Part shown: piece by piece, positions 5,869-33,900 of the stretch
How the letters are laid out: each line of letters opens with the position of its first letter
Numbering within the stretch: position 1 is the stretch's first letter
NCBI GenBank assembly: GCA_018820855.1
Contig: JAHJNL010000086.1
Coordinates: forward strand, 1 to 64,000
DNA: 64,000 nucleotides
From: Pseudomonadota bacterium
GTDB lineage: Bacteria > Desulfobacterota > Desulfobulbia > Desulfobulbales > Desulfocapsaceae
Direction of reading: 5' to 3'
Position numbers and translations under genes: made by a program
Notes under the pieces: model-generated
Told to the model about the DNA's origin: nothing
The model's database searches: none
What the model saw: the letters and a program-made list of their open reading frames with translations, nothing else

Positions 5869-8800
5869 TTAAGCTTCCTTAACCTGCTCTGCATGCGAAT
5901 GCTTTTTGAGCATAAAGTAAAGTACCGGCACCGCCATACGACTCACCAACAGAGAGGCAATCTCGCCAAACATAAGTGAAATGGCCAGTCCCTGGAAGAT
6001 AGGATCAGCCAGAATGACCGAGGCACCCACAACCACGGCCAGAGCTGTGAGAAGCATTGGTCGAAAGCGGACAGCACCAGCTTCAACCACGGCCTCGGCC
6101 AAGGGGAGGCCATGGCTGATGCGCAGTTCAATAAAATCCACCAGGATAATGGAGTTTCGGACCACGATACCAGCGCCGGCCATGAAACCGATCATGGATG
6201 TGGCTGTGAAAAAGGCGCCGAATCCCCAATGGGCAGGCAGGATTCCGATGAGAGAAAATGGGATGGCAGCCATGACCACCAAGGGAGTGAAGTAGTCTTT
6301 GAACCAGCCCACCATCAGCATATAGATAAGGATCATGACTACACAAAAGGCCAGACCCAGGTCACGAAAAACTTCCAGAGTGATGTGCCATTCGCCGTCC
6401 CACTTTATGGCCGGTTGGGCCGTGGTAAAAGGCTGGTTCAGATTATAGAGTTCGACCTTGCTGCCGCTGCCGCCAAAATCGGCTGGATTCAACTCGGCCA
6501 AGCGCTTATTCATATCAAATATGGCATAGACTGGACTTTCAACAGATCCGGCCACATCGCCGGTAACATAAATGACCGGTTTTAGGTTCTTGCGATAAAT
6601 CGGTTGTTCCACCGGTACCTCTTCCACCGCCACCAATTCTCGCAGTGGCACCAGAGGTGCCTCCGGATTCATGGAACAGCGCAGACCGATATTGAGTAAT
6701 CCATCAACGGAGGCGCGCAAGGCCAGCGGCAGTTCCAGAATAATATTAATCTCTTCCTTGTCACGAGGCTGGTGGAAAAGATCAATGGACATGCCCTGCA
6801 TACCCATCTGCACGGCTCGAGTAATCTCTCCTACGGAGATATCATTCAGGGCGGCTTTTTCCTTGTCCACGGTTAGTACCAGACGACTGCGCTCACTCTC
6901 CCGGTACCAGTCCACATCCACTGCCCCTTCAGTGGCTTCGAAAATACGCTTTACTTCTTCGGCAAGTTTGACCCTATCCCCGTCACTGGGCCCATAGATC
7001 TCTGCCACCAGGGTCTGGAGAACAGGCGGGCCGGGCGGGACCTCGGCCACGGCCACAGCTGCTCCGTATTTTTTGGCGATTTCAGCAATGCCAGGGCGAA
7101 TGCGCACGGCAATATCATGACTCTGCAGAGATCGTTCATGCTTGGGCAGGAGATTGACCTGAATATCGGCAACCGTTGGCCCCTGACGCATGAAATAGTG
7201 GCGAACCAGGCCGTTAAAGTTATAAGGAGAGGCCACGCCTGCATAGACCTGGTAATTGACTACGGCCGGGTCAGCCTTGACCACCTCTGCCATCTCCAGG
7301 GCCACCCTGCTTGTCTGTTCAAGGGTGGAACCCTCCGGCATATCAAGGATGACCTGAAACTCACTCTTATTGTCAAACGGCAGCATTTTCACCTTGACCA
7401 GCCCCAGATAGAACATGGAGCAGGCACCGATGAGCATGGCCACAATTGCCACGAAAAAAACAAACCGCGCAAAGCCACTTGCCAGAAGCGGGTCCATGAT
7501 TCGGTGGTAAATGCGGGTAAAAAAATCATCAGGGGCATGATCCTCGTCTCCCCCTTCACCGCTTGCAGCGCACTCAGACGTGCTGCATTTCTTTCTCAGC
7601 ACCTTGACTGCAGCCCAGGGAGTGACAGTAAAGGCGATAATGAGAGAAAAGATCATGGCCGCAGAGGAACCGATGGGGATGGGACGCATGTATGGACCCA
7701 TGAGTCCGCCGACAAAGGCCATGGGCAGAATTGCAGCAATAACCGCCAAGGTGGCAAGGATAGTAGGGTTACCCACCTCAATTACCGCTTCCACTGCAAT
7801 ATTGGCCAGCGGTTTTTCCTTACTTGCAGGCAACCGCATGTGGCGGACAATGTTTTCCACCACTACGATGGCGTCATCCACAAGGATACCTATGGAAAAG
7901 ATCAGGGCAAAAAGGGTGATGCGATTGAGGGTATAGCCATAGAGATAAAAAACAAGAAGAGTTAAGGCCAGGGTGGAGGGAATAGCCAGCATGACCACTG
8001 TAGATTCCCGCCAGCCCAGAAAAAACAGAATAAGGATGGCCACGCCAAAGACTGCAATCCCCATATGGAGGAGCAGTTCATTGGATTTTTCTGCAGCAGT
8101 TGCTCCGTAGTTACGGGTGACAGTGACAGAAAGATCGTCAGGGATAATCCTGCCCTTCAGGCTCTCCACCTTTTCCAGGACCTCTTTTACCACACTTACG
8201 GCATTGGATCCCGGCCGTTTGGCAATAGACAGGGTAACGGACGCTTCTTCGCTGTGCCCTCCTGCTTCACCAAAGAGGACGTAGTTGTTCGGTTCCTCAG
8301 GACCATCAAGGATGGTAGCCACTTCATCGAGATATACCGGCCTGCCGCCATACACTCCGACCACAACACGGCCGATATCTTCTGCATTCTGCAGGAAGTT
8401 TCCGGTCTGGAGGAGAATTTCCTGATTCATGACCTCAACCTTGCCGCTGAATATCTGACGATTCGCCTGCTGCAGGGCCGGGACAAGCTGGGCCACAGTC
8501 AGGTTACGAGAGACAAGGAGCAAGGGATCGAACTGAATACGGACCTGTCTTCTGTTTCCGCCAATCAATGTTGTCTCAGCTACATTGTGGATACTTTTGA
8601 CAACATCATCCACCTCGGCAGCCAGACGGCGCAAAATAAAGTGATCGTAATTTTTGCCGTGAAAAGTCAGGGCAAGGATGGGGACATCATCAATAGTATG
8701 GGGTTTAATCAGTGGCTGGGAAACTCCATGGGGAATACGATCATAATTGGTGGCCAATTTCTGGTTCAGTCTGACAATGGAAGTTTCCAGGTTCTCCCCC

Positions 8801-9123
8801 ACGTAAAACCGAACAACGAGTAAACTTTGCCCGGCCATGGAGGTGGAGTAGATATATTCAACACCGGGAAGCTCGTAGAGCAGTTTTTCCATGGGAATGG
8901 AGAGCCGGTCCTCCACTTCTTTGGGAGTTGCGCCAGGCATGGAGACCATAACATCAATCATGGGCACCTTGATCTGCGGTTCTTCTTCCCGCGGCAGCAT
9001 GATTATTGCCATCAAGCCTAGGAGTAAAGATGCAATAATTCCAACCGGGGTCAGTTTAGAATCTACAAAGGCAGCGGCCATGCGTCCGGCAAATCCCGGA
9101 TTTTCAAATTCTAGTTTATTCAT
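5869..9123 (-). CDS. RND efflux transporter, inner-membrane permease subunit
   Basis: The 1084-residue protein has the AcrB/HAE1-like architecture: an N-terminal membrane helix, a large periplasmic domain, a membrane block, a second periplasmic domain and a second block. In the first block the proton-relay motif appears as [16 protein letters not shown] pumps use proton influx to export drugs, metals or lipophilic compounds through a periplasmic adaptor and an outer-membrane channel. Both partners are encoded immediately upstream on the same strand, so this is the third gene of a tripartite operon. Substrate cannot be told from sequence. A 241-bp gap separates it from the adaptor gene. Confidence 0.92.
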
Positions 9124-9364
9124 AGGATTCTACGCATAAAAATTAAACGTCCGATATCGAATGTTCAACGTTGAATATAAAATACAAACAGGGCATCCTT
9201 TATCCATAAGTTCCCACGCAAAACGTGAAAACGATAATACTATGATTGGTCATAGCACGGTAAGAGTTCCCCTGTGGTTCGGATTCCTTTACTCAGGCTG
9301 GAGAATCTCTGGGTTTCTCTGTGAGCAAGGCTGAGCAAAAGGAAGATGGAGTGCCGGTGAGCTC
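9124..9364. other. 241-bp gap inside the efflux operon, no gene seen
   Basis: No coding frame with a start signal is visible. The stretch is unusually long for an operon whose first two genes overlap. I see no clear terminator with a T-run and no obvious promoter. Confidence 0.4.
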
Positions 9365-10408
9365 TTACAGTTTTTCAATGGTCAATGGTTGCCCATCCTG
9401 CAGTCTGTCTGCACCACGAACAACAACAAACTCTCCCGGATCCAGCCCGGACAGAATCTCCACATCGCCATCATAAACCGCCCCAGTGCGAATCAGACGT
9501 AACCTGGCAATATTTTCTTCGACCACAAAGACAAGATCCATCTGACCTTTTGTAATAACTGCGGACTCAGGAACAACAAGGGTCATTTCATCGGTATTTT
9601 CAAGGGTTACCCGAGCAAACTGTCCAACCCTGAGATCAGGCCCCACCGGAATCTTAATCTTTACCGGGGCAGTACGAGACAAGGGGTCAGCAGCAGGAGC
9701 CACCTGAGCCACCTCACCAACCAAAGTAAGGGCCGCTGCAGGAATATGAACCGGCAGGCTGTCACCAATGGAGACCTTGAGGAGCAAGGCTTCTGGTACC
9801 TGGGCCAGTATTTGAAGATCATCACCATTTTCGATCTCCAGCAAACTCATTCCCGGGGAGGCAAGATCGCCAACATTGGCCATCTTTCTGGTAATGGTCC
9901 CGGCAAAAGGTGCAGTGATCGTGGTATAATCCAGCATGGTCTTGACCTCTTTATAAGCAGCCTCGGCAATAAGAGTGACATCCTCCAACGACTTGACAGT
10001 TTCCCGGGTGGATGCCCCTTCTTTCTGCAATTTTTTTTCGCGAGCAAGGTTACGACGGGCCTGGGCCAGCTGAGCTTCAGCCTGTAAAACCTTGGCTGAG
10101 ATTTCACCAGCTGAAATCTTCATCAGCAAATCCCCACTCTCCACCTCCGACCCAAGGACCAAGGGCAGCTCAACTATCTGACCTGAAATTCTTGCAGAAA
10201 TCGATGCCCTCTGAACTGCTTCCACAGTCCCTACCACCTCAACCCGAGAACGGGCTATCTCTTCACGGACCTCTTCTGCTGCAACTGTCACTGAAGGCAG
10301 TGGCAGGACCTCACCCTTCGTATGTTCTTCCTGCCCTTTGCAACCGGGCAAAATTGCTATTCCACCGAGGAGTATGGCTCCTACCGTCAACGCGCTCCAC
10401 TTCATCAC
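9365..10408 (-). CDS. RND efflux periplasmic adaptor (membrane fusion protein), lipoprotein
   Basis: The 347-residue product begins with a lipoprotein signal ending in a lipobox-like LPGC. A barrel-sandwich (lipoyl-like) segment, a coiled-coil hairpin (about residues 100-150, rich in Ala, Gln, Arg and Glu) and a beta-barrel domain follow in the usual order for AcrA/MexA-type adaptors. The protein bridges the RND pump and the TolC-like channel. Its start codon overlaps the end of the channel gene by 4 bp (ATGA), which indicates translational coupling. Confidence 0.9.
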   Translation of the reverse strand: MMKWSALTVGAILLGGIAILPGCKGQEEHTKGEVLPLPSVTVAAEEVREEIARSRVEVVGTVEAVQRASISARISGQIVELPLVLGSEVESGDLLMKISAGEISAKVLQAEAQLAQARRNLAREKKLQKEGASTRETVKSLEDVTLIAEAAYKEVKTMLDYTTITAPFAGTITRKMANVGDLASPGMSLLEIENGDDLQILAQVPEALLLKVSIGDSLPVHIPAAALTLVGEVAQVAPAADPLSRTAPVKIKIPVGPDLRVGQFARVTLENTDEMTLVVPESAVITKGQMDLVFVVEENIARLRLIRTGAVYDGDVEILSGLDPGEFVVVRGADRLQDGQPLTIEKL

Positions 10409-11769
10409 CTGTTCTCCTCTTCACCTGTCATTGCACTCTTTTCAAACTGCGGTAACCCCATGGCCCGTCGCAGATCTGCTATGGCCACCTTAATGTTAGC
10501 CTTGGCCACACTCTGCCGCACCAGCGCATCTGTAAGACGCATCTCCACATCAATCAAGTCAGACGAAAGAATAACCCCTTCCCTGAAGCGGCTCCGACTC
10601 AGGCGCGCACTCTCTTCGGCCTGCTCCACCATCTTCTCGGTCACATGAAAACGCTGCTCTGCCTGATGGTAGCTGAGATCTGCCTGTTTTATCTCCAGAT
10701 CCATGCCCAGCTCAGCCTTTTTTCGCTGCGCCCGCACTGTTGACAATTCCGCCATGGCCTTGGCCACATCAGCAGAGGTCTTATGCCCCTCAAAAAGACG
10801 GTAGTTGACCTTCACTCCGGCCATCCAGGAGTCACCTTCTCCTTCCATAACGTATCCCTTGTCATACTGGTAGGAGGCAAAACCGTCCACCGTTGGCAAG
10901 TTGCCCCCTTTGGCGGCTCGTAACATTGCTACAGCTGCTGCCTCTGCAGAGGCCAGACTTTTGAGCTCTGCACGCTGTGCATAGGATCGATCCTGGGGGA
11001 GTCGCTGTTCACTTTCACGGGAAGGATTGATGACCACTGGTCCCTCCTCCAGGCCAAGAAGGTTAAGAAAGATCCTTCGTGACAGTTCCAGATCATGTTC
11101 GGCAAGAATCAGGTTCTCTGTGGCCCGGGATTCCAGAACCTCCAGGTTGAGCAGATCCGTTTTAAGCAAGTCACCGGCCCTGTAACGGGCCCTGGCAACG
11201 GCAAGGGAGGCCTGAATGGCATCAAGGGAGGCCTTGCGAGCCTCCAGCATCTCCCCAGCCTGGACCATTGATTGAAAACTCTGCACCACCTCGAAGGCCA
11301 GACGGGAATGCACAACTTCCAGGTCCATGCGCGACCTCTCAAAACCCGCATTTGCCGCATCTACAGTGGCCACATCCCTGCCTCCGTTATACAGGCGGTA
11401 CTCAATGCCGGCGCGCAGATTCAGGTCGTCAGTACGACCCGGATCGTTAAAATCAATGGATTGGCTGAACGTTCCCTGATTGAGAATACTGCCGAAGGAG
11501 TACATGGGATTGTTAGTCTGACCATATAGAGCAGAGATATCAACGTGCGGATAGTAGCCAACCCTGGCCTGGTTCACAGCAGCTCCGGCCATCTCCATAC
11601 GTTGCAGGGCAATGCGGCTGTCTGGACTGTTGTCCAGGGCAAAAGCTACGCTATTTCTGGCAGTCCAAGCCTCCGGGATCTCTTGAGAGGCAGAATAACC
11701 TGCAGAGACCACTGGACTTAGCAAGCAGAGGAGCAAGAGAGCAGTGCTTCTCATTTTGATCATATTCAC
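10405..11769 (-). CDS. TolC-family outer-membrane efflux channel
   Basis: The 454-residue protein has a signal peptide (cleavage near residue 24, VVSAGYS) and two repeated outer-membrane efflux protein domains with long Ala/Glu/Arg-rich helices that form the periplasmic alpha-barrel. It ends with the segment VAIADLRRAMGL, typical of the family. It is the first gene of the efflux operon on the minus strand and overlaps the adaptor gene by 4 bp. It provides the exit duct across the outer membrane. Confidence 0.9.
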   Translation of the reverse strand: MNMIKMRSTALLLLCLLSPVVSAGYSASQEIPEAWTARNSVAFALDNSPDSRIALQRMEMAGAAVNQARVGYYPHVDISALYGQTNNPMYSFGSILNQGTFSQSIDFNDPGRTDDLNLRAGIEYRLYNGGRDVATVDAANAGFERSRMDLEVVHSRLAFEVVQSFQSMVQAGEMLEARKASLDAIQASLAVARARYRAGDLLKTDLLNLEVLESRATENLILAEHDLELSRRIFLNLLGLEEGPVVINPSRESEQRLPQDRSYAQRAELKSLASAEAAAVAMLRAAKGGNLPTVDGFASYQYDKGYVMEGEGDSWMAGVKVNYRLFEGHKTSADVAKAMAELSTVRAQRKKAELGMDLEIKQADLSYHQAEQRFHVTEKMVEQAEESARLSRSRFREGVILSSDLIDVEMRLTDALVRQSVAKANIKVAIADLRRAMGLPQFEKSAMTGEEENR

Positions 11770-21236: not shown

Positions 21237-22301
21237 CTACAAGTTCCAATATCTTTTTGCAACAAACCTCGCCTGCTCTATGGCAGGATGCACTGATTTT
21301 TCATTTGCAAAGCATTCCGCACTCTTTTTATCAAGGTTTGTAGGGGAACCACTATCCAAGGGCTGATCACAGAGTTCAGAAAGAACAGCCAGAGCTCCAT
21401 CACGCATACCGTTGAGATTATATCCACCCTCAAGTGTCACCAGAAGTTTGCCCGAACAAACCTCTTTAGCCAAATTGACCATGCTTCTCGTCATATAGGC
21501 AAATCCTTTTGCAGTCACCTCCATGGCACCTAGGGGATCACCTTGACAAATATCAAAACCACAGGAAATTAGAATCAGATCCGGCCGGTATTGTTTACCT
21601 AGAGGGAAAACAATCTCATTGAATATAGCAGCGTATTCTTTGTCCCTCTGATATCCGGGAAGAGGAATATTGACGGTATAGCCCTCTCCTTTCCCCTGTC
21701 CTGTTTCATGGAGAGATCCGGTTCCTGGATAATAAGGATACTGATGGGTGGAAACATACAACACCTTATCCGAGTCATAAAAGGAACGCTGGGTACCGTT
21801 TCCATGATGAAGGTCCCAATCCACGATCATCACCCGCTTAAGTCCGCAGTGCTCCAATGCATAGTGTGCGGCAACAGCAACATTATTAAAAAGACAGAAT
21901 CCCATGGATCTATCCTTTTCGGCATGATGTCCCGGGGGACGTACCAAAGCAAAACCGTTGTCAATCTCCTTTGCAAGCAAGAGATCAACCCCATGAATCA
22001 AGGCTCCCACAGCCTTACAGGCCGCTGCATAAGATTGCTTAGAGGTAAAGGTGTCCGGGTCAAGGCTGTCAAAAACTTTTCCAGCCGTTTTCTCCACCCG
22101 TTTCATGAGATCAGCTGTATGATTGAGGCCTATGATCTTATGCGTGGCTGGGGCGAATTCTGGATAAATAAAATGGTCCCTGACCTCTTTCCTGTCCAGC
22201 GCCTCATAAATAACCTTCAGGCGCTCAGGTGATTCCACGTGGTCAAAACCAGGATCATGGGCTATGAAAAGAGGATCTCTGAACACTGCTGTCTTGCGCA
22301 T
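21237..22301 (-). CDS. histone-deacetylase-like amidohydrolase
   Basis: The 354-residue protein matches the arginase/deacetylase (AcuC/HDAC) family: RPPGHHAEKDRSMGFCLFNNVA supplies the catalytic His pair, DWDLHHGNGTQ and ISCGFDICQGDPLG supply zinc ligands, and LEGGYNL is the C-terminal motif. Bacterial members remove acetyl groups from acetyl-CoA synthetase, polyamines or other small molecules. The start is ATG 22301, preceded by AGGAGGAAA; an upstream in-frame extension is rejected. The gene sits 75 bp before the 5-formyl-THF cyclo-ligase gene in sequence order and is transcribed after it. Confidence 0.88.
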   Translation of the reverse strand: MRKTAVFRDPLFIAHDPGFDHVESPERLKVIYEALDRKEVRDHFIYPEFAPATHKIIGLNHTADLMKRVEKTAGKVFDSLDPDTFTSKQSYAAACKAVGALIHGVDLLLAKEIDNGFALVRPPGHHAEKDRSMGFCLFNNVAVAAHYALEHCGLKRVMIVDWDLHHGNGTQRSFYDSDKVLYVSTHQYPYYPGTGSLHETGQGKGEGYTVNIPLPGYQRDKEYAAIFNEIVFPLGKQYRPDLILISCGFDICQGDPLGAMEVTAKGFAYMTRSMVNLAKEVCSGKLLVTLEGGYNLNGMRDGALAVLSELCDQPLDSGSPTNLDKKSAECFANEKSVHPAIEQARFVAKRYWNL

Positions 22302-22375
22302 ATATTTCCTCCTGTCTACAATCGCAGGCACTAAATAGCGGGGTCTTCGCTACCTGCATTGATAAGGACTAAACA

Positions 22376-22960
22376 TTATAGTCGTCTGCCGGAGATAGAA
22401 CGTTTTTCAGTCAAAATCATGTCCATTAATTCATCATGCTCCTGCAGCGGGGCCTTGTCCACTATCTGCAGCTCATAGGCGAGTCCCACCCGCAATGCCT
22501 GCGGTGCCAGGATCGAGACAAAGCGGTCATAATACCCACCGCCATAGCCCATTCTTCCACCCTGCTCATCAAAAACAGACCCTGGCAGAAAGATGAGATC
22601 AATGCTGCCGGGAGGAACCGACTGACTTCTCCTTATCTCAACTCTCGGTTCCGGGATCGAGCAGTACCCTGGAGCAATATCTTTATCCGGATCATTAATA
22701 AAAACAGGCAGTAAAGCCTTTTCCTTGACTAGAGTAACAGGTACCACCACTTTTTTCCCCAGTGCCAGCATATGGTCGATAAGAGCACGAGTTTTTACCT
22801 CAGAACGAAAATTGACATAAATAAAAATTATGTCTGCCCTGACAAATTGCTCCAGACCTATAGCTCTTTCCATGATCAACCGGCTGTTAAGGCTGTGTTC
22901 CTCACAGCTCATGGCATCACGCTGACAGAGTATATTTTGACGCAGGGTTTGGGAATCCAT
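22376..22960 (-). CDS. 5-formyltetrahydrofolate cyclo-ligase
   Basis: The 194-residue enzyme returns 5-formyl-THF to the folate pool as 5,10-methenyl-THF, using ATP. Diagnostic parts are the N-terminal LRQNILCQRDAMS, the IYVNFRSEVKT segment and the C-terminal LPGSVFDEQGGRMGYGGGYYDRF motif. I start at MDSQTLRQN (ATG 22960), where family members begin; the open frame extends 36 codons further but that part is not family-like. The start has no strong Shine-Dalgarno. In other bacteria 6S RNA often lies upstream; I could not recognise it here. Confidence 0.9.
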   Translation of the reverse strand: MDSQTLRQNILCQRDAMSCEEHSLNSRLIMERAIGLEQFVRADIIFIYVNFRSEVKTRALIDHMLALGKKVVVPVTLVKEKALLPVFINDPDKDIAPGYCSIPEPRVEIRRSQSVPPGSIDLIFLPGSVFDEQGGRMGYGGGYYDRFVSILAPQALRVGLAYELQIVDKAPLQEHDELMDMILTEKRSISGRRL

Positions 22961-23112
22961 ATTGTAACTATTCAAGTGTATGCAAAAAAAGTTTATAATA
23001 CCACCAAATAAACTGTGCAAAAGAACATTGGCTGTGCTGATCGTAATCAGCCATAAAGCACCGATCAAAAACTACTCATAGGGTTGTTTTATTAGACAGA
23101 CAATAAAAACTC

Positions 23113-23157
23113 AAAAAAAAATCGCAGCTTCTGACTGGCAGAAACTACGATTTTTCT
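23113..23157 (-). terminator. rho-independent terminator after the YedE-type gene
   Basis: Imperfect stem AAATCG-TAG-TTTCTG paired with CAGAAG-CTG-CGATTT, followed on the minus strand by a run of eight or more T residues. Confidence 0.75.
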
Positions 23158-23203
23158 CAATTCTCTCTGCTGGATGCAGATAAAATTTACTGCGACCCTC
23201 TAA

Positions 23204-24463
23204 TCACATGGGTACAATCAGTTTATTGGTATCTTCATTCCAGGTCACTACCAGGTACCAGGCCATCATAACAAAACCGATCAGGGCTAAAGTCCATCCG
23301 TATCCCATAACATCGGGTAAGTAGACATAGGAACCTAGTTTGCCGGCCTTTTCCAGGTTAATTTCATCGGGACCAAAATTCTTAAACCAGGTAACCATCA
23401 GGGAGTTGGCTATACCGAAAAAAGGTACAACAAGTATGAGTTTAATCTGACCTTCACCTACACGCCACAGGGTACCGGAACCGCAACCACCGGCAAGCAT
23501 GGCGCCAAGGCCGAAGATAAAACCACCAACAATGGAACCCCAGCCAAAGGTACCGCGAACATAATTAGCAGGAGCAAGAACAGCCTCTCCACCATGAGCA
23601 ACAGGTACGCTGTATTTCAATACAGCGCCACCAATAGCCAGGAGCAGGATAGATAAAGCAACAGATTTCGCAAGGGTACAATCACCAGTCATATGGGGTT
23701 CACGAAATCCCTGCACCATACACCAGCGTCCACGCTGCATGGTGTAACCTAATGCGGCAGAGATCATAATGACACCGCCAAGTGAGGCAATATAATTACT
23801 ATCCTCATTTCCAGCGTATATGTAAGCCCCCCAGATCAAAGCGGCAATGGCACCCAGAGCTAGAATATTTTGAATAGGATTAGGAATATTAATAGTTGCG
23901 GAACCGCCGTTACCCCAGGAAATATGTTCCATCTCCAGATAAAGAAGTTTCAGACCCAGAACAACACCTGCTGTCAGGCCGATCCACATGGTAAAACCGT
24001 TGGCAGCGAGATTACCGATAGCATTATACATACCACCAACGTTACAGCCACCAGCAAGAGCAGCTCCGATGCCCATGAGGATACCGGCAATCACAGCCTT
24101 AACCAGTTCCCGGTAAGGAGGAAAACGAAAAGCAAAATCTTTACCAAGACATGCTGAAACAAAGGCACCAGCTACAAAACCTATTCCAATTACCGAACCG
24201 GAACTTATTAAAGCACTCTGGGGAGCTTCATCATAATAAGCAAGTATTCCCGACTCAGCTCCTATGATGGTGTTCATTCCATAAATAATCCATTCACCCC
24301 AGTTTCTAATGGCACCAACAGCTCCCCAGGGACGCCACCAAGCCATCATCAATATGGAAAGAAACGCAACAATAGCACCGACCACTGTAGGGTTCCACTC
24401 CGACTGACAACATGTCTTGTAAAGTGATTTCACTTTACTTACCATTACACTCTCTTCACTCAT
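23204..24463 (-). CDS. YeeE/YedE-family membrane transporter for sulfur or selenium compounds
   Basis: The 419-residue polytopic protein has about ten membrane helices and two symmetric halves, each with a conserved cysteine motif (GGCNVGG and GGCGSGT). These cysteines are used in YeeE proteins to pass thiosulfate across the membrane. Length and sequence look closer to YedE than to short YeeE proteins; YedE has been proposed to work in selenium metabolism with a TusA-like partner (YedF). A tusA-type operon diverges from it across a 340-bp spacer. I infer import of a reduced sulfur or selenium species that is handed to TusA. Confidence 0.85.
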   Translation of the reverse strand: MSEESVMVSKVKSLYKTCCQSEWNPTVVGAIVAFLSILMMAWWRPWGAVGAIRNWGEWIIYGMNTIIGAESGILAYYDEAPQSALISSGSVIGIGFVAGAFVSACLGKDFAFRFPPYRELVKAVIAGILMGIGAALAGGCNVGGMYNAIGNLAANGFTMWIGLTAGVVLGLKLLYLEMEHISWGNGGSATINIPNPIQNILALGAIAALIWGAYIYAGNEDSNYIASLGGVIMISAALGYTMQRGRWCMVQGFREPHMTGDCTLAKSVALSILLLAIGGAVLKYSVPVAHGGEAVLAPANYVRGTFGWGSIVGGFIFGLGAMLAGGCGSGTLWRVGEGQIKLILVVPFFGIANSLMVTWFKNFGPDEINLEKAGKLGSYVYLPDVMGYGWTLALIGFVMMAWYLVVTWNEDTNKLIVPM

Positions 24464-24522
24464 AACTCTCCTCCTTCAGTCAGATTTATCTTGGTAACGG
24501 TTTACTGAATATAGATCAGGCT

Positions 24523-24551
24523 TTTCTACTCTCGCCCAAACCTTTTGTCAA
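24523..24551 (-). promoter_or_regulatory. sigma-70-type promoter of the YedE-type gene
   Basis: On the minus strand TTGACA (24546-24551) and TAGAAA (24523-24528) are 17 bp apart, about 60 bp upstream of the start codon. Confidence 0.55.
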
Positions 24552-24662
24552 GTATCTAAGGGGGAAATCCCTAATTTTTTACTGGATATAAATTTAAATT
24601 TTCAATATTAAAACAGTCGGTTATAAATCAAACCCTCCCTTGAATGACCATTCATTTTGCTC

Positions 24663-24691
24663 TTGACATAATCCTCCCCCTAAAGTATTAG
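24663..24691 (+). promoter_or_regulatory. sigma-70-type promoter of the tusA operon
   Basis: TTGACA (24663-24668) and TATTAG (24686-24691) are 17 bp apart. A short dyad, TAGTC-AA-GACTA (24689-24700), overlaps the start region and could be an operator. Confidence 0.6.
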
Positions 24692-24802
24692 TCAAGACTA
24701 CCAATTGTACATAGTACTGTTTGCATGAGCTGATTTTTGGTTTTCAAACAGGAAAACAGTCACATTGAAGTCTACCGAACAATATCTTTAGGAGGAAATC
24801 AA

Positions 24803-25060
24803 ATGAGTGAGCACAAAGTTGCCGAAGACGGAATTGCTGTAAACTTTACACTGGATGCAAAAGGACTGAGCTGCCCCATGCCTCTTCTTCGTACTAAAAA
24901 AGAAATTGGAAAAATCGCTTCCGGCGAGATTCTCCAGATAGATGGTACCGATCCAGGTTCCCGTAATGATATCCCCGGTTGGTGTGCCCGCGCAGGACAC
25001 GAATACTTGGGTGAGAAAGAGCAGTCTGGTTACATCAGCTTCTTCATCAAAAAAGGTTGA
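24803..25060 (+). CDS. TusA-family sulfur carrier
   Basis: The 85-residue protein carries the TusA signature LDAKGLSCPMPLLRTKK, with the persulfide-carrying Cys in CPMP, and a C-terminal IPGWCARAGHEYLG segment typical of TusA/YedF proteins. Such proteins pass sulfane sulfur between rhodanese-like, DsrE-like and biosynthetic partners in the cytoplasm. The start is ATG 24803 with AGGAGG a few bases upstream; the frame extends upstream without a binding site. It is the first gene of a four-gene unit. Confidence 0.88.
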   Translation: MSEHKVAEDGIAVNFTLDAKGLSCPMPLLRTKKEIGKIASGEILQIDGTDPGSRNDIPGWCARAGHEYLGEKEQSGYISFFIKKG

Positions 25061-25099
25061 TATTTTAACTAGTTAGATTTTACACGGAGGATAAAGCAT

Positions 25100-25432
25100 A
25101 TGTCTGCTGATCCAAATAAATTTGGTATTTTTGTGACCTCTCCGCAACACATGAGGCACGTGGTTGGAATTGCCGAGGCTGCTAAAAAGGCTGGCAAACA
25201 GCCCATGGTTTTCTTTACTTACAAATCAATTCACCTGACAAAAGATTCCCGTTTCAAGGGCCTTGCCGAGATGTGCGGAAAGGACAATATAGCCATCTGT
25301 GCTGACAGCTACACCTGTGAAGGGTACGACTCAGTTGCTGATGTCCCTGCCGGTCTCAGCGACCAGCAGATGCGAACTCAAGCATTCCACGGCGCTATAC
25401 TTGATGAATGCGGAAAGTACATCGTACTATAA
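25100..25432 (+). CDS. DsrE/DsrF-like family protein
   Basis: The 110-residue protein has the DsrE-like Rossmann-type pattern: beta strand KFGIFVTS, helix HVVGIAEAAKKAG, strand PMVFFTYKSIHLT, then ICADSYTCEG with a possible active Cys. DsrE-like proteins receive or donate sulfane sulfur with TusA and DsrC. GGAGG precedes the ATG, and the gene lies 39 bp after tusA and 12 bp before the next gene. Confidence 0.75.
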   Translation: MSADPNKFGIFVTSPQHMRHVVGIAEAAKKAGKQPMVFFTYKSIHLTKDSRFKGLAEMCGKDNIAICADSYTCEGYDSVADVPAGLSDQQMRTQAFHGAILDECGKYIVL

Positions 25433-25444
25433 GGAGTTTATGAA

Positions 25445-25804
25445 ATGGAATCTTTAAAGGTATATATTTTAATTGCTAACCGTATGTATAATGACGGGGT
25501 ACGCTCCGCCTTGGGTCTCGCTGTAGAGAATCACTACGGTTACCCTGTTATATTTAAAGGTGAATATCCCTCTTTCTCCACCTATATGAAAGAGAATATG
25601 TCCTGGATTATGGATATGGAAGGACAGGTATACAGCTGTGGAGCCGCCGTTCCTGAAGCAACCTATGACGCCGATCTGGAAGAAAACCTGATCAAAGAAA
25701 TAGATCTTAAGGAACTTGGCGAGGCCATGCGGGAAGCCGATTACATCATCCCTTACGGCCTTCCGAAACAGACAAATGAGCCACCACCAGCCTGTGCTGA
25801 ATAA
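25445..25804 (+). CDS. small uncharacterised protein of the sulfur-relay operon, perhaps DsrE-fold
   Basis: The 119-residue protein begins with a strand-like SLKVYILIANRMYNDGVRSALGLAVE, similar in layout to DsrE/DsrF proteins, and has QVYSCGAAVPEATY in the middle and a Cys near the C-terminus. I do not recognise a named family. AAGGAG precedes the start. Its position between a DsrE-like gene and a small Cys-ended gene suggests a role in sulfur transfer; this is inference from context. Confidence 0.6.
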   Translation: MESLKVYILIANRMYNDGVRSALGLAVENHYGYPVIFKGEYPSFSTYMKENMSWIMDMEGQVYSCGAAVPEATYDADLEENLIKEIDLKELGEAMREADYIIPYGLPKQTNEPPPACAE

Positions 25805-25815
25805 GGAGAAAGATA

Positions 25816-25989
25816 ATGAAAATTTTACAAGTATATCGTTCAGCACCCAGTGATGAAACCAAAACACTTGTTGAAATCCTGAACCGTGATCGCGAAGCTG
25901 ATTCTTTTGATCTGAATGTTGCGGCTCCTGATTACGACCAGCTTGTTCAAAAAATCATTGACGCCGATCAGACTGTTTGTTGGTGGTAA
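25816..25989 (+). CDS. 57-residue protein ending in Cys-Trp-Trp
   Basis: A short frame starts at ATG 25816, seven bases after AAGGAGAA, and stops at TAA 25987-25989. The predicted protein begins MKILQVYRSAPSDETKTLVEIL, here given only in its first part, and ends DQTVCWW. It has a strand-helix-strand look and one cysteine, placed at the extreme C-terminus. The end recalls the hydrophobic-Trp endings of DsrH/TusB proteins, but it is shorter than these. It lies 11 bp after the previous gene and directly before a terminator, so it is the last gene of the tusA operon. Confidence 0.72.
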   Translation: MKILQVYRSAPSDETKTLVEILNRDREADSFDLNVAAPDYDQLVQKIIDADQTVCWW

Positions 25990-26010
25990 TCTGACGTTTT
26001 TGAAAGTTTT

Positions 26011-26048
26011 AAACCCCCGCTGCTTTTTTAAGCAACGGGGGTTTTTTT
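26011..26048 (+). terminator. rho-independent terminator of the tusA operon
   Basis: Stem AACCCCCG-TGCTT with AAGCA-CGGGGGTT (single mismatched base each side) and a tail of T residues. Confidence 0.92.
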
Positions 26049-26116
26049 ATATCAAAAAAATATCCGATAACGAACATATCGATAACATCAATAGTTATAA
26101 TTCCGATATTCTTTCC

Positions 26117-27217
26117 TCAGTTTCCTTTTATAATTCCTTCCATCAACGTATTATGAAAAAGTGGTCTAAACTGACGGATCTTTTCATTTTCTCTGGTAGG
26201 ATGAACTCGGTTTGTCAATAATACTGCAATACACTCTTTTTCCAGATCAATCCAAAAAGAAGTCCCTGTAAAGCCCAAATGCCCTACACTCCTCTTTGAA
26301 AAGAGGGTCCCGCTGCTTGACCCCTGCTCCGAAGGGGTATCAAAGCCCAAGGTCCATGTAGATCCTTTTACACGAGTCATAACCCGCCTGAGAATTTTAT
26401 TCGTATAAGCCGGATGCCTTTCTCTTCCCTGCCACTGGTTAAGTAAATGTTCACAGAGTGTAATGACTCCATAGAGGGTACCAAAAAGCCCAGCATGCCC
26501 TGCCACTCCACCAATAGCCCTGCAATTATCATCATGTACTTTACCGCAAAGCATTTTATGGTCCCATAAGCACTTTTCTGTACATACATAAACATTACCC
26601 CTATCTTTGTTCACACTTGCAAATATAAGCTCTTTTTGGAGCTTTAATGGGGTATATATGATTGAGCCTGCTAGTTCATAAAGGTTTTTGCCCGTTATTT
26701 TTTCGATAATAATCCCCAGAAGTATAAAACCGATATCGCTATAACAATGAATTTTTCCTGGTTCTGCACTTAATTTTTCAGCTAAAATTTTAGTTAGAAG
26801 TACTCCTTGTCTCTCTGCTTCTGAAAAATTGAGAAGCTCTTGGAAATATGGTCGATGGGCTGGAAAACCTGAACTATGCGACATAAGTTCTTCGATTGTT
26901 ATTCCCATTTTGTCAGGGGGACAAAATGGGAATAATTCAGCAAGGGTAGTACGAAATGTCAAACTCTTGTTTTCCAAAAGATAGAGTAAAATAAGAGTGG
27001 TAACCAAGGGTTTTGTAAGAGATGCCAGATCAAAAAAATCCGTTATTTTCAAAAGTTTTTTTTCTGGAGTAAGCTGAGAATAACCATAGTGTTTAGTAAA
27101 ACGCTCATATCCACTCCCGGTCCATTGTGAAAAACCTATTGAAGCACCTGGAAAAACGTTATTATCAAGAGCACTTATAATCAATTTATCTATCAAAATT
27201 TCTTTTGTTTTATCCAC
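26117..27217 (-). CDS. beta-lactamase-like serine hydrolase (class C / penicillin-binding fold)
   Basis: The protein has the serine beta-lactamase fold motifs: SLTK (Ser-x-x-Lys nucleophile motif) in DFFDLASLTKP, a YSDIG motif in the Tyr-x-Asn position, MSHSSGFPAH and a C-terminal HLGFTG in the Lys-Thr-Gly position. Family members act on peptidoglycan peptides or esters. I place the start at GTG 27217, with AAGGA eight bases upstream (366 residues). An ATG at 27253 and one at 27316 are alternatives with poorer signals. No signal peptide is evident from the chosen start. It occupies the place next to dnaN where dnaA often lies. Confidence 0.8.
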   Translation of the reverse strand: MDKTKEILIDKLIISALDNNVFPGASIGFSQWTGSGYERFTKHYGYSQLTPEKKLLKITDFFDLASLTKPLVTTLILLYLLENKSLTFRTTLAELFPFCPPDKMGITIEELMSHSSGFPAHRPYFQELLNFSEAERQGVLLTKILAEKLSAEPGKIHCYSDIGFILLGIIIEKITGKNLYELAGSIIYTPLKLQKELIFASVNKDRGNVYVCTEKCLWDHKMLCGKVHDDNCRAIGGVAGHAGLFGTLYGVITLCEHLLNQWQGRERHPAYTNKILRRVMTRVKGSTWTLGFDTPSEQGSSSGTLFSKRSVGHLGFTGTSFWIDLEKECIAVLLTNRVHPTRENEKIRQFRPLFHNTLMEGIIKGN

Positions 27218-27329
27218 TTTCAAAATCCTTACCCATATCTTTTTTAATAACATCCTTGAGAAATGAATTCTCAGTGAATAAATCTTGTTTTTTAACCCTT
27301 TTTGAACTAGAATCAAACAAGCATGAAAA

Positions 27330-27590: not shown

Positions 27591-28721
27591 ATGACACTGA
27601 AATGTACCGTATCACGATCCGATTTAATGGAAGGTCTCAATAGCCTGCAAAATATAACCAGCAAACGTGCAACACTGGCTATTCTTTCCAATATTCTTAT
27701 TGAAACCACAAATGACAGCCTTATTCTGACTGGAACTGATCTTGAAGTAGGATTAAGACTTCAGGTCCCTGCAGATATCCATGATCAAGGATCACTTACT
27801 CTTCCCAGTAAAAAAATATTCGAAATTGTTCGGGAGTCAGGGACCGAATCCATAAAAATTGAAGAAACCGATAATAGTTGGGTTATAATATCTGCTGGAC
27901 TGAGTACCTATAATCTCGCAGGTATGGCCAGTGATGAATTCCCGGAATTTCCATTATTCAAAGAAGACAGTTTTGTTTCTTTTGAAGCAGGGTTTTTCTC
28001 TGATTTAATAGACAAGGTTATTTATTCGGTAGCAAATGAGCAGGAAAATGTCTACTCCCTTACCAATGTTCTCTTTGAAACAGAAAAAAAGGAAAATAAA
28101 TCATATATTCGCATGATATCCTCAGACGGGCATCGTCTTTCAATTATGGAAAAAGAAGTTGCTGCTGATATAGATCGGCTCAACCTTAACCCAGTAACGC
28201 TGATTCCCAAAAAAGGAATACAGGAATTAAAAAAATTTTGTGACACCCTTGATACAGTTGAACTCTCTTTTGAAAAGAAACAAATGGTTGCAAGAGATAA
28301 CAAATCAATAATGGTTATTCGCCTTAAACAAGGGGAGTTTCCACACTACAAAGCAATTGTTAATGCTGTTCAATTAGAAAACAAAATAGAAATTGAAAGA
28401 ATTCCATTTCTTGACTCATTAAAACGTATAAATATATTCACAGAAGATATTTTTCATACCATCCAGTTAGAAATAGAAAATGGAAAAATGATTCTAACTT
28501 CACAAAACGCTGATCTTGGAAATGCTAAAGACATACAAGATATAACTTATGAAGGAGAACCTCTCGTTCTTGGTTTTAATTGTCGTTATTTTATAGAAGC
28601 ACTTCAAGTAATGGAATGTGACACTGTAGAAGCCTATATCAATTCAAACAACAGTCCATGTCTGATGAAATCCAAAGTAGATGAAGGATTTTTAAGTATT
28701 ATAATGCCTATGCAATTATAA
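27591..28721 (+). CDS. dnaN: DNA polymerase III sliding clamp, beta subunit
   Basis: The 376-residue protein has the three-domain clamp layout, with the N-terminal LKCTVSRSDLMEGLNSLQNITSKRATLAILSNILIET-like pattern, the ISSDGHRLSI motif (near 183) and the conserved C-terminal IIMPMQL. The clamp encircles DNA and tethers the polymerase. It is followed by gyrB and gyrA. In many genomes dnaA precedes dnaN; here the upstream gene is an unrelated, oppositely oriented hydrolase. Confidence 0.95.
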   Translation: MTLKCTVSRSDLMEGLNSLQNITSKRATLAILSNILIETTNDSLILTGTDLEVGLRLQVPADIHDQGSLTLPSKKIFEIVRESGTESIKIEETDNSWVIISAGLSTYNLAGMASDEFPEFPLFKEDSFVSFEAGFFSDLIDKVIYSVANEQENVYSLTNVLFETEKKENKSYIRMISSDGHRLSIMEKEVAADIDRLNLNPVTLIPKKGIQELKKFCDTLDTVELSFEKKQMVARDNKSIMVIRLKQGEFPHYKAIVNAVQLENKIEIERIPFLDSLKRINIFTEDIFHTIQLEIENGKMILTSQNADLGNAKDIQDITYEGEPLVLGFNCRYFIEALQVMECDTVEAYINSNNSPCLMKSKVDEGFLSIIMPMQL

Positions 28722-28745
28722 ATGTTTTAAACATATGTAAATAAG

Positions 28746-31222
<2,477 letters not shown>

Positions 31223-31419
31223 ATGATGTAATAAGTTATCAGCATTCAACTAAAAGAGTGCAATGATATTAAATTCATCTTTTTGGAATTTTTTACTGAG
31301 AGATATTATAATTCAAAACTCAGCAAAAATATGAAGCACTGATAATCTCTTAGCATGTTGAGTTTTAAGTGATTGTTTTAACTTAAAACAGACGAACCTA
31401 TATTGGAAAAAATTTTCTT

Positions 31420-33900
31420 ATGACCACTGAAGAACGAAATCCCACTATATCTATTGAACAAGAACTGAAGAAATCCTATCTTGATTATGCCATGAGCGTC
31501 ATTATAGGCAGGGCTCTGCCTGATGTTCGTGACGGTCTTAAACCTGTTCATCGTCGGGCACTCTTTGCCATGAGAGAACTAGGCGTATTTTTTAACAGGC
31601 CTTATGTCAAATCAGCCCGTATTGTCGGTGATGTAATAGGTAAATATCATCCGCATGGTGATACGGCTGCTTATGACACCATCGTCCGTATGGCTCAGGA
31701 TTTTTCCATGCGTTATCCCCTGGTAAACGGTCAGGGTAACTTTGGCTCCATGGATGGAGATTCTCCAGCAGCCATGCGTTACACCGAAGCGAGAATGACT
31801 CGTATCGACCGGGAAATAGTGGCTGATCTGGATAAAGAGACCGTAGATTTTGTCCCTACCTATGACAATTCTATGATGGAACCGACGGTTATGCCCAGTA
31901 AGGTTCCTACCCTGTTGATTAACGGTTCTTCCGGTATTGCCGTGGGAATGGCTACAAATATTCCGCCTCATAATCTTACCGAGGTTATGGATGGTTTGAT
32001 AGCTATGGTGGATAATTCCAATATCACTGTCCATGAACTTATAAATATAATAACCGGTCCTGATTTTCCCACCGGTGCTATGATTTGTGGTCGTGCAGGA
32101 ATACGAGAAGCCTATGAGACAGGTCGCGGCAGTGTACTCATGCGTTCCACTATCCATGTTGAACAGATAAAGGGTGGAAAGCGAGAGGCCATCATTATTG
32201 ATGAAATTCCGTATCAGCAGAACAAAGCAACTTTAGTTATGAAGATTGCCCTGCTAGTAAAGGAAAAGAAAATTCAATCCATTTCCGAAGTACGTGACGA
32301 ATCAGACAGACACGGGCTCAGAATTGTGATCGAACTGAAAAAGGATGAGATAGCCGATGTGGTTATTAATCAGCTATATAAAATGACTCCTTTGCAGCGC
32401 TCTTTTGGTATTATTTTTCTGGCTATTGTTAATAATAGACCGGAAGTCCTTAATCTGAAACAGATTTTGGAACACTTTATTCTTCACCGCAAGGTGGTGG
32501 TTTTTCGTCGTACTGCTTTTGAATTAAATAAAGCGGAGGAAAAAGCTCATCTTCTTGAAGGACTCAAGATAGCCATTACCAATCTAGATGAGGTGGTTAA
32601 ATTAATAAGAAGTTCTAAAAATCCAGTAGTGGCCAAGGCCGAACTGATTAGTCGCTTTGAGCTTTCAGAAATTCAGGCTCAGTCCATTCTTGATATGCGT
32701 CTTCAACGCCTCACTGGTCTTGAACGGGAAAAGATAATCAGTGATTATACAGAAATTATGATCGAGATTGATAGGTTGAAGACTATTCTCGGTGATGAAG
32801 ATCTGGTCATGAAGATCATTCGTGACGAATTTTTGGAAATCAAAGAGACCTATGGTGATGAAAGACGTACCGAGATTATTGATGCCGTTGATGAAATTCT
32901 GCCGGAAGATATGATTACCCCTGAGGATATGGCGGTGACCGTTACCCATTATGGTTATATCAAGCGTAATCCGGTAAGTCTGTATCGTTCTCAGCACCGA
33001 GGTGGTAAGGGAGTATTCGGCGTCAAAAATATTGAGGAAGATTTTGTATCGAATCTCTATGTGGCCTCTACTCATGACACCTTTCTTTTCTTTACTAATC
33101 ATGGAAAGATATTCTGGCGCAAGGTTTATCAATTACCGCTTGCCGGACGTACTGCAAGGGGTAAGGCCATTGTTAATTTACTCAACCTGGCAGAAGGCGA
33201 GAAAGTGGCTGCAATACTGCCCATCTCCGAGTTAAGTGATGAGGGAACCGAAAAAACGATTCTGATGGTCACCCGCTTGGGCAGAGTGAAAAAGACCAGT
33301 CTCCAGGAATTTGTCAAGCCTCGTAAACGAGGTAAAAAAGCCTTAACTATCAATGAAAATGATGAAATAATAGCCGCTCATATCTTAAACGGCGATGACA
33401 CCATCTTTATTGTTTCTGAAAATGGGGCATCTATCCACTTTCATGAATCCGACATCAGGACTATGGGCAGAACAGCTGCCGGCGTCATGGGTATCAGGTT
33501 GAAAGAAAATGATGTTGTGGTTGGTGCTATTGTCATTTCTTCTGATGATTCTATCCTCACCGTAACTGAAAACGGTTATGGGAAACGTACCCCAGTGAAG
33601 GAACATCGCATTCAAGGGCGTGGCGGAAAAGGAATCATAGCTATTAAGGTCAGTGAGCGAAATGGTAAGGTAGTTGGTGCCATGCAGGTGGACGAAGAAA
33701 ATGAGGTTATGCTTATTGCAGATTCCGGGAAGATGATCCGTATGCCGCTTAAAAATGTCAGGATTATCGGGCGAACCACTCAGGGGGTCTGTCTCATTAA
33801 TCTGGCTGATGATGAAAAAGTGGTAGCAATGGATCTTGTAGCCCCTGAAGATGATTCAGAGGACGAGGAAGATACAATAGAACAGAGCACGGATGAATGA
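31420..33900 (+). CDS. gyrA: DNA gyrase subunit A
   Basis: The 826-residue subunit cuts and rejoins DNA with catalytic Tyr121 in [10 protein letters not shown]. The quinolone-resistance region reads [19 protein letters not shown]; the residue matching E. coli Ser83 is Thr82, a natural variant in several wild-type bacteria, and Asp87 is matched by Asp86. The C-terminal domain has the GyrA-box RGGKGV and six beta-pinwheel repeats, and the tail is acidic. A 197-bp spacer separates it from gyrB, and it overlaps gpsA by 8 bp. Confidence 0.96.

Follow-up and report, generated by a model that had tools for sequence, protein, structure and literature searches.

The YTD gene cluster was reportedly introduced by Umezawa et al. 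in 2020. It consists of a yedE-related gene, tusA, a dsrE-like gene and two conserved hypothetical genes (PMC13293266, PMC8780430, PMC9751629); the disproportionator Desulfocapsa sulfexigens carries it (PMC13293266), and all five proteins were reported to be more abundant during thiosulfate disproportionation (PMC9751629). In 2026, PMC13293266 (ISME J) named the dsrE-like gene and both hypothetical genes DsrEFH type II, distinguished three subtypes of type II trimers on concatenated E-F-H, and reported for Electronema aureum GS, in vitro, that TusA persulfidates DsrE only if Cys67 is present, that the three subunits co-purify and that the trimer hands sulfur on to DsrC; a DsrF persulfide and a Cys67-independent transfer to DsrC were judged nonspecific by its authors. 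In the same year, PMC13047784 (BMC Genomics) reached the same trimer by modelling and preferred a role in disproportionation. Here, we describe such a module at positions 23204-25989 of a 64,000-nucleotide stretch of DNA from a Desulfocapsaceae bacterium (assembly GCA_018820855.1, contig JAHJNL010000086.1, positions 1 to 64,000), this whole stretch being called the window. While the module itself is already known, the exchange of trimer forms that we found within it seems to be new.

Identity of the module

In its gene content, the window agrees with the YTD, or yeeE-tusA-dsrEFH type II, module. A gene for a yedE/yeeE-like sulfur transporter (23204-24463, minus strand; 419 amino acids; Pfam Sulf_transp at 151.6 bits, cut-off 27) diverges from four plus-strand genes across an intergenic region (24464-24802, from gene order) in which promoters are presumed in both directions. 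The four genes are tusA (24803-25060; 85 amino acids, with Cys24 in a CPMP motif; Pfam TusA at 83.6 bits, cut-off 28.6), dsrE (25100-25432; 110 amino acids, with the sulfur-carrying Cys67 and with Cys59, Cys73 and Cys104, characteristic of what we call form A), dsrF, also of form A (25445-25804; 119 amino acids, with an insertion holding Cys65 and a C-terminal tail holding Cys117) and dsrH of type II (25816-25989; 57 amino acids, ending in Trp-Trp). They are spaced by 39, 12 and 11 nucleotides, and a Shine-Dalgarno-like sequence can be read ahead of each. An earlier note, made from the letters of this DNA, had likewise described a YedE-type transporter diverging from four genes that include TusA and a DsrE-like protein, and all five of its open reading frames lie at these positions. 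It could not name the other two small proteins, fairly so as far as sequence goes, since DsrE, DsrF and DsrH of the window reach no Pfam or NCBIfam cut-off; the names exist nonetheless, as the published orthologues are dsrF and dsrH (PMC13293266, PMC13047784).

To place these proteins we used pairwise identity to the E. aureum GS locus; the published type II hidden Markov models have a cut-off of 80 bits. Identity was 80% for TusA, 80% for DsrE, 75% for DsrF, 67% for DsrH and 68% for YedE. DsrEFH of E. aureum has seven cysteines (four in DsrE, two in DsrF and one in DsrH), every one of which is kept in the window proteins; the count agrees with that of PMC13293266, namely Cys67 plus six, two of those in DsrF. 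Cable-bacterial DsrEFH type II, though from a different organism, thus shares with the window the seven cysteines, an operon with tusA and an adjacent yedE. For wider comparison, we searched 93 genomes of the window's family, 54 of them good ones, with DsrF (E 0.001), and took from named relatives the best 80 of 207 loci, ranked by their match to a DsrF profile headed by the window; the nearest of these named relatives by DsrF included Desulfocapsa metagenome-assembled genomes, cable bacteria and Desulfobulbus isolates. Cys67 was present in 150/150 aligned DsrE rows, a count in which the family and named sets overlap and some genomes stand twice (L057 and L129, for example, are one contig). 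The SCPMP motif of TusA was present in all 69 family relatives found, and the Trp-Trp end of DsrH at 70/70 family loci.

Against Pfam DsrE/DsrH, the window DsrE had no DsrE match, DsrF scored 12.3 bits (cut-off 22.7) and DsrH had none. Among form-A members, 13/43 DsrE proteins matched DrsE_2 (best E 0.009) and 7/43 matched Pfam DsrE, all weakly, and the DsrE of a congener with form B (L037) scored 21.9 bits on Pfam DsrE, against the cut-off of 22.7. The assignment of DsrE thus rests on orthology, on Cys67 and on weak Pfam matches. Profiles of E, F and H gave chance-level matches only when compared with the sequences of solved structures. For DsrF, an AlphaFold2 model (mean predicted local distance difference test, pLDDT, 88.2) matched 2hy5_A with Z 8.2 (root-mean-square deviation 2.8 over 97 aligned residues), YchN (1jx7) with Z 9.8 and the TusBCD chain 2d1p_A with Z 8.0, and the first match outside DsrE/F-type chains came at Z 6.0. 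On its model, DsrF is of the DsrE/F-type fold; its tail (residues 111-119, mean pLDDT 65) is predicted to be flexible. Published DALI Z scores are 6.9 for DsrF and 4.7 for DsrH (PMC13047784). The window DsrF hence has its fold in common with DsrEFH type I of Allochromatium vinosum (2HY5), for which one active cysteine in DsrE is published, as for type II, and with TusBCD (2D1P), although no sequence match to either exceeds a cut-off and the window DsrH has only 57 residues.

The genome also encodes dsrA (575.8 bits, cut-off 392.85) and a DsrC/TusE-family protein (95.1 bits, cut-off 53.5). Together, Cys67, the likeness to the E. aureum proteins, the DsrF fold and this co-occurrence with dsrA and dsrC place the trimer in DsrEFH type II. 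By sequence comparison, the identity of the five genes with the published YTD module, and of the two small genes with dsrF and dsrH, is well supported.

Two deeply diverged trimer forms sharing a chromosomal location

The family contained 71 DsrF loci, 20 of which carry form A (the window and 19 others) and 48, in 47 genomes, a second form, B. The other three hold a B-like second copy, C, with a co-directional yedE, and all three genomes in question (G000, on contig C36; G007; G074) also carry form A. In the window genome (G000), this second complete module lies at 8239-10787 of its locus L034, where yedE points the same way as tusA-dsrE-dsrF-dsrH and the trimer is B-like; gene content is that of the YTD cluster in both modules of this genome, while yedE is divergent in the window. 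No family genome carried both form A and form B.

The forms are told apart by their cysteines, which we counted in family form A, the named loci, form B and copy C, in that order. DsrE Cys73, six residues after the catalytic Cys67, was present in 20/20, 80/80, 0/47 and 0/3; Cys104 in 20/20, 77/80, 0/47 and 0/3; and Cys59 in 20/20, 68/80, 0/47 and 0/3. In DsrF, the tail Cys117 was present in 20/20, 80/80, 0/48 and 0/3 and Cys65 in 20/20, 57/80, 0/48 and 0/3. Because the named loci were chosen with the window-led DsrF profile, their Cys117 count is partly a product of selection, but DsrE Cys73 was not so selected. Form B has cysteines of its own, at window positions 56 (47/47) and 106 (45/47) of DsrE and 7 (45/48) of DsrF. 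By cysteines, cable bacteria, Desulfobulbus, Desulfogranum and some Thermodesulfobacteria have form A.

Across the order, Desulfobulbales to judge from the named relatives, a form-B DsrE profile found 149 places in 141 of 159 genomes with completeness of at least 90%. They fell mainly into two bands, with 96 places at or above 144 bits (B-like) and 48 at 90-112 bits (form A), and 16/16 loci read outside the family fitted their band; of the remaining places, one was cut (G154), one scored 70 bits (G102) and three scored 32-36 bits. Loci L224 (3461-4744), L225 (3430-4354) and L226 (1539-3080) hold a distant set of E-, F- and H-like genes that score only about 30-36 bits on the DsrE models; their H ends in a single Trp, and a TusA-like frame, a YedE-like gene or both lie close by. 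From inspection by eye, we also take response regulators and a gene resembling those for membrane glycosyltransferases to be among their neighbours. These sets may represent a further type of DsrEFH-like trimer.

When the window was compared with the form-B congener L037, protein identity was 82% for YedE, 89% for TusA and 74% for H, and 45% for E and 44% for F. At the DNA level, its identity to seven form-B congeners was mostly 74-81% in yedE (65% at the 5' end), 56-61% in the intergenic region, 80-81% in tusA, 43-56% in dsrE and dsrF (82-88% among the form-B loci themselves), 67-69% in dsrH and 57-64% in the downstream gene. Since the flanks align on both sides, forms A and B occupy the same chromosomal place. 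Mean tree distances within the genus for E+F were 0.14 between form-A loci, 0.14 between form-B loci and 2.19 between forms, with only 0.37 from form A to cable bacteria, whereas for YedE+TusA the corresponding values were 0.15, 0.26, 0.29 and 0.94. For H, the distance was 0.48 between forms and 0.62 from form A to cable bacteria.

Flanks also align between forms in a second genus (L212, form A; L210, form B) and in family f13 (L213, form A; L216 and L217, form B). Between congeners of different form in the second genus, identity was 74-77% for YedE and 85-86% for TusA, which exceeds that of the G108 proteins to their form-B counterparts in another family (68 and 78%); E and F were 43-46% identical, and H followed form (63-66% vs 82%). 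In f13, YedE followed the family (74-76% vs 65%), and E and F were 42-50% identical between forms.

On 49 loci, the E+F tree split forms A and B by a 100/100 branch, while the YedE tree mixed them, with four changes of form versus one. In approximately unbiased (AU) tests, the YedE data rejected a tree in which form A is monophyletic (p 3.7e-5), and the E+F data rejected one in which the genus is (p 4e-62). In a YedE+TusA tree of 50 loci, for which 13 of the earlier 49 rows were dropped and 14 added, and from which L215 (split tusA) and L224-L228 were left out, form changed eight times, at least seven of these changes being forced by well-supported branches. Without four doubtful rows (L211 and L212, both from bin G109, and the long-branched L061 and L223), there were seven changes, at least five of them forced. 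Each of E, F and H alone gave one change, the support of 93.6 for H not being decisive. As for the split tusA, L215 (3730-4037, genome G172) has the gene in two overlapping frames, owing to a frameshift or an assembly error.

Three observations speak against a clean swap. TusA alone, a weaker test, gave six changes with an AU p of 0.024. In f13, TusA does not follow lineage, since that of L213 is 78% identical to Desulfobulbus (form A) and 73-74% to the form-B members of its family. The dsrH of the window is not clearly swapped either, being closer to the form-B congener (74%) than to cable bacteria (67-70%). From the identities and trees taken together, the exchanged block is dsrE-dsrF and probably also dsrH, with its left edge, in the window's genus, at the tusA/dsrE boundary.

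Several origins of this pattern were considered. Rapid in-place divergence of E and F was rejected, as the window and cable bacteria have form-A proteins that are 75-80% identical and have an insert and a tail in common, and transfer of the whole module within the genus found no support, as YedE, TusA and the flanking DNA on either side remain with the congeners. Because each form is grouped by genus within the family, both forms are old, and the counts of changes fit exchange on several occasions as well as long coexistence followed by sorting. Two ancestral trimers with differential loss may account for the pattern, although we saw no locus that holds both. As to chimeric bins, G109 may well be mixed. 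This one bin holds two form-A modules, one of which, L211, falls with the window's genus in the YedE+TusA tree, so that contamination or recent transfer is probable.

Cohesion of the module and the proposed sulfur relay

DsrF homologues were found in 67/93 family genomes (42/54 good ones). Since loci chosen by DsrF could not reveal clusters lacking the small genes, we also used YedE as bait (E up to 1e-40), which again found 67/93 genomes (42/54 good ones). Both proteins were present in 64 genomes and neither in 23, so that 87/93 agreed; the six discordant genomes (DsrF only in G017, G051 and G089; YedE only in G013, G015 and G090) are all less than 90% complete. The absence of the small genes from otherwise like clusters, on which the earlier note had staked its proposal, was thus not what we observed, 64 of the 67 YedE genomes having DsrF and the other three being incomplete. 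The note had also proposed checking whether the five genes stay together; all five were found at 60/71 family loci and 72/80 named loci.

Several of the exceptions were cut by contig ends. Among the 11 incomplete family loci, six were cut (L064, L094, L109, L114, L119, L120), and L071, with about 1 kb beyond tusA without yedE before its contig ends, is unsettled; E, F and H were together at 69/71 loci, the remaining two being cut. Of eight incomplete named loci, four were cut at tusA or dsrE (L138, L171, L191, L206) and L146 is the contig of G077 again. In G021, G061, G066, G077 and G078, yedE and DsrF lie on different contigs, the DsrF contig ending close by. The module can nevertheless be split, since G091 and G056 have yedE on another contig than the trimer, which is flanked there by other genes. 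The presence of dsrA does not explain the distribution of the module, as dsrA exceeds the cut-off in 79/93 family genomes (any match in 86; 54/54 good ones).

We consider it very probable that the five genes serve a sulfur relay leading from YedE through TusA and DsrE-Cys67 of the DsrEFH trimer, of form A in the window, to DsrC and the DsrAB system. YedE would pass a reduced sulfur species across the membrane, the CPMP cysteine of TusA would accept sulfane sulfur, and the DsrE-DsrF-DsrH trimer would take it on DsrE-Cys67 and hand it to DsrC, feeding the genome's DsrAB system. Transport by YedE, its substrate, and use in sulfur oxidation or in disproportionation are what we infer; the steps from TusA through the trimer to DsrC would proceed by analogy with the E. 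aureum orthologues. The earlier note had proposed a chain from the transporter through TusA to a cytoplasmic acceptor, which for sulfur accords with the transfer from TusA to DsrE-Cys67 and on to DsrC reported for these orthologues (PMC13293266).

Several points weigh against such a relay. A nearby yedE is truly missing at four family loci (L088, L100, L105, L107), with tusA missing too at L088, and the named loci L166, L199 and L205 have more than 4 kb ahead of tusA and no yedE. L105 and L107, both of genus g17, are trimer operons without a neighbouring yedE. The model of DsrH (57 residues, pLDDT 92.8, b-a-b-a-b) had no DsrE-fold chain among the matches listed by Foldseek and VIA-align 2, and no Pfam family came near significance, so that DsrH is assigned through its orthology with the published DsrH. 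PMC13047784 regards the trimer as a structural analogue, not an orthologue, of DsrEFH, its DsrH lacking Cys20. Moreover, PMC13293266 (sulfur oxidation) and PMC13047784 (disproportionation) disagree on the direction in which the relay is used, and thiosulfate gave no persulfidation of E. aureum TusA, DsrEFH II or DsrC (PMC13293266).

This last result bears equally on the model of PMC13047784, in which thiosulfate would be taken up and cleaved by a TsuA/YeeE-like transporter and a TsuB/YeeD-like TusA, with the trimer taking what TusA releases, for disproportionation. That D. sulfexigens has the YTD cluster (PMC13293266) and that YedE and TusA have relatives of the TsuA and TsuB type, likewise a transporter with a TusA-like partner, speak for this model, yet thiosulfate was no persulfide donor in those assays, and the trimer occurs in only 25/63 known disproportionators in pure culture (PMC13293266) while 141/159 genomes of the order have it. 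The window YedE reached 94.9 (cut-off 400) and 75 (cut-off 645) on TsuA and 87.8 (cut-off 350) on YedE/FdhT of NCBIfam, so that it is neither equivalog, and TusA reached 23.7 on TsuB/YeeD (cut-off 147.5); membership of the two in TsuA/TsuB was therefore rejected. On balance, we regard the thiosulfate model as possible but doubtful.

Delivery of selenium, with a YedE/FdhT-like transporter and a TusA-like protein feeding SelD, had been left as an option by the earlier note, which had suggested looking for selD. The gene is indeed present, with an in-frame TGA (366.6 bits), and the FdhT-type score of YedE is in keeping with the option. However, selD lies on a third contig (C91) and the genome's own YedF (195.7 bits, cut-off 110) on yet another (C104), both away from the locus; YedE stays far below the FdhT cut-off, TusA reaches only 28.1 (cut-off 110) and 34.7 (cut-off 79) on YedF, and the partner genes are orthologues of a DsrEFH II assayed with sulfur. 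We therefore rejected a selenium module, which seems extremely unlikely. A relay for tRNA 2-thiouridine, with DsrEFH II acting as TusDCB, would share the trimer architecture and is matched by the likeness of the DsrF model to the TusBCD chain, but a YedE transporter is not known to belong to that pathway. It is also at odds with the 23/93 family genomes that lack both YedE and the trimer and with the published transfer, which goes to DsrC (PMC13293266), and we consider it very unlikely.

Around the operon, a hairpin with a T run at 26011-26048 (plus strand) forms an intrinsic terminator of tusA-dsrEFH; region 25985-26060 folds at -26.9 kcal/mol (z -4.69), and 0/200 shuffles fold equally well, although a consensus terminator scanner did not list the hairpin. 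Promoter-like matches in 22300-26200 numbered 12, vs 7.1 ± 2.7 in shuffles, which is not convincing. An alternative tusA frame of 107 amino acids starts at TTG 24737; AGGAGG precedes ATG 24803, and the longer frame is probably an over-extension. On the yedE side lie a histone-deacetylase-like gene (21237-22331; labelled by eye, with no NCBIfam match) and a 5-formyltetrahydrofolate cyclo-ligase gene (22376-23068; from an NCBIfam-type search). Downstream of dsrH come a PBP4B/beta-lactamase-like gene (26117-27316), below its family cut-off, and then dnaN, gyrB and gyrA (within 27591-33900), which are often found near the replication origin.

Implications for sulfur metabolism

The terms 'horizontal', 'gene conversion' and 'Cys73' are absent from the main text of PMC13293266, the matches to 'recombin' displayed from it concerning recombinant proteins. 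In the open literature on the module, at the level of titles and the first lines of abstracts, and with PMC13047784 covered for module names, no exchange of the trimer is described; subscription papers and supplements lie outside this scope. The module is in use as a marker, either of sulfur disproportionation or, as the most recent paper has it, of sulfur oxidation by sulfate reducers. As it is present in 141 of the 159 genomes of the order that were searched at 90% completeness or more, a marker of disproportionation alone fits poorly.

We tentatively suggest, as one possibility among others, that two old, interchangeable forms compete for one slot beside a resident YedE and TusA, that the dsrE-dsrF block, probably with dsrH, has changed form at least five times while YedE and TusA for the most part stayed in place, that the forms differ in chemistry, with Cys117 as a second relay site, and that lineages switch form to change the sulfur species or the direction served. 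The extra thiols of form A would then have a functional role, and both the persulfide on DsrF and the transfer to DsrC that bypasses Cys67 would be partly genuine rather than nonspecific. The two forms matter because the assays reported in PMC13293266 used form A, from E. aureum, while conclusions were drawn for all type II trimers. With a like transporter and TusA at one site and a different trimer beside them, these loci offer a natural experiment, and the conserved thiols of form A make the DsrF persulfide testable as a step of the relay.

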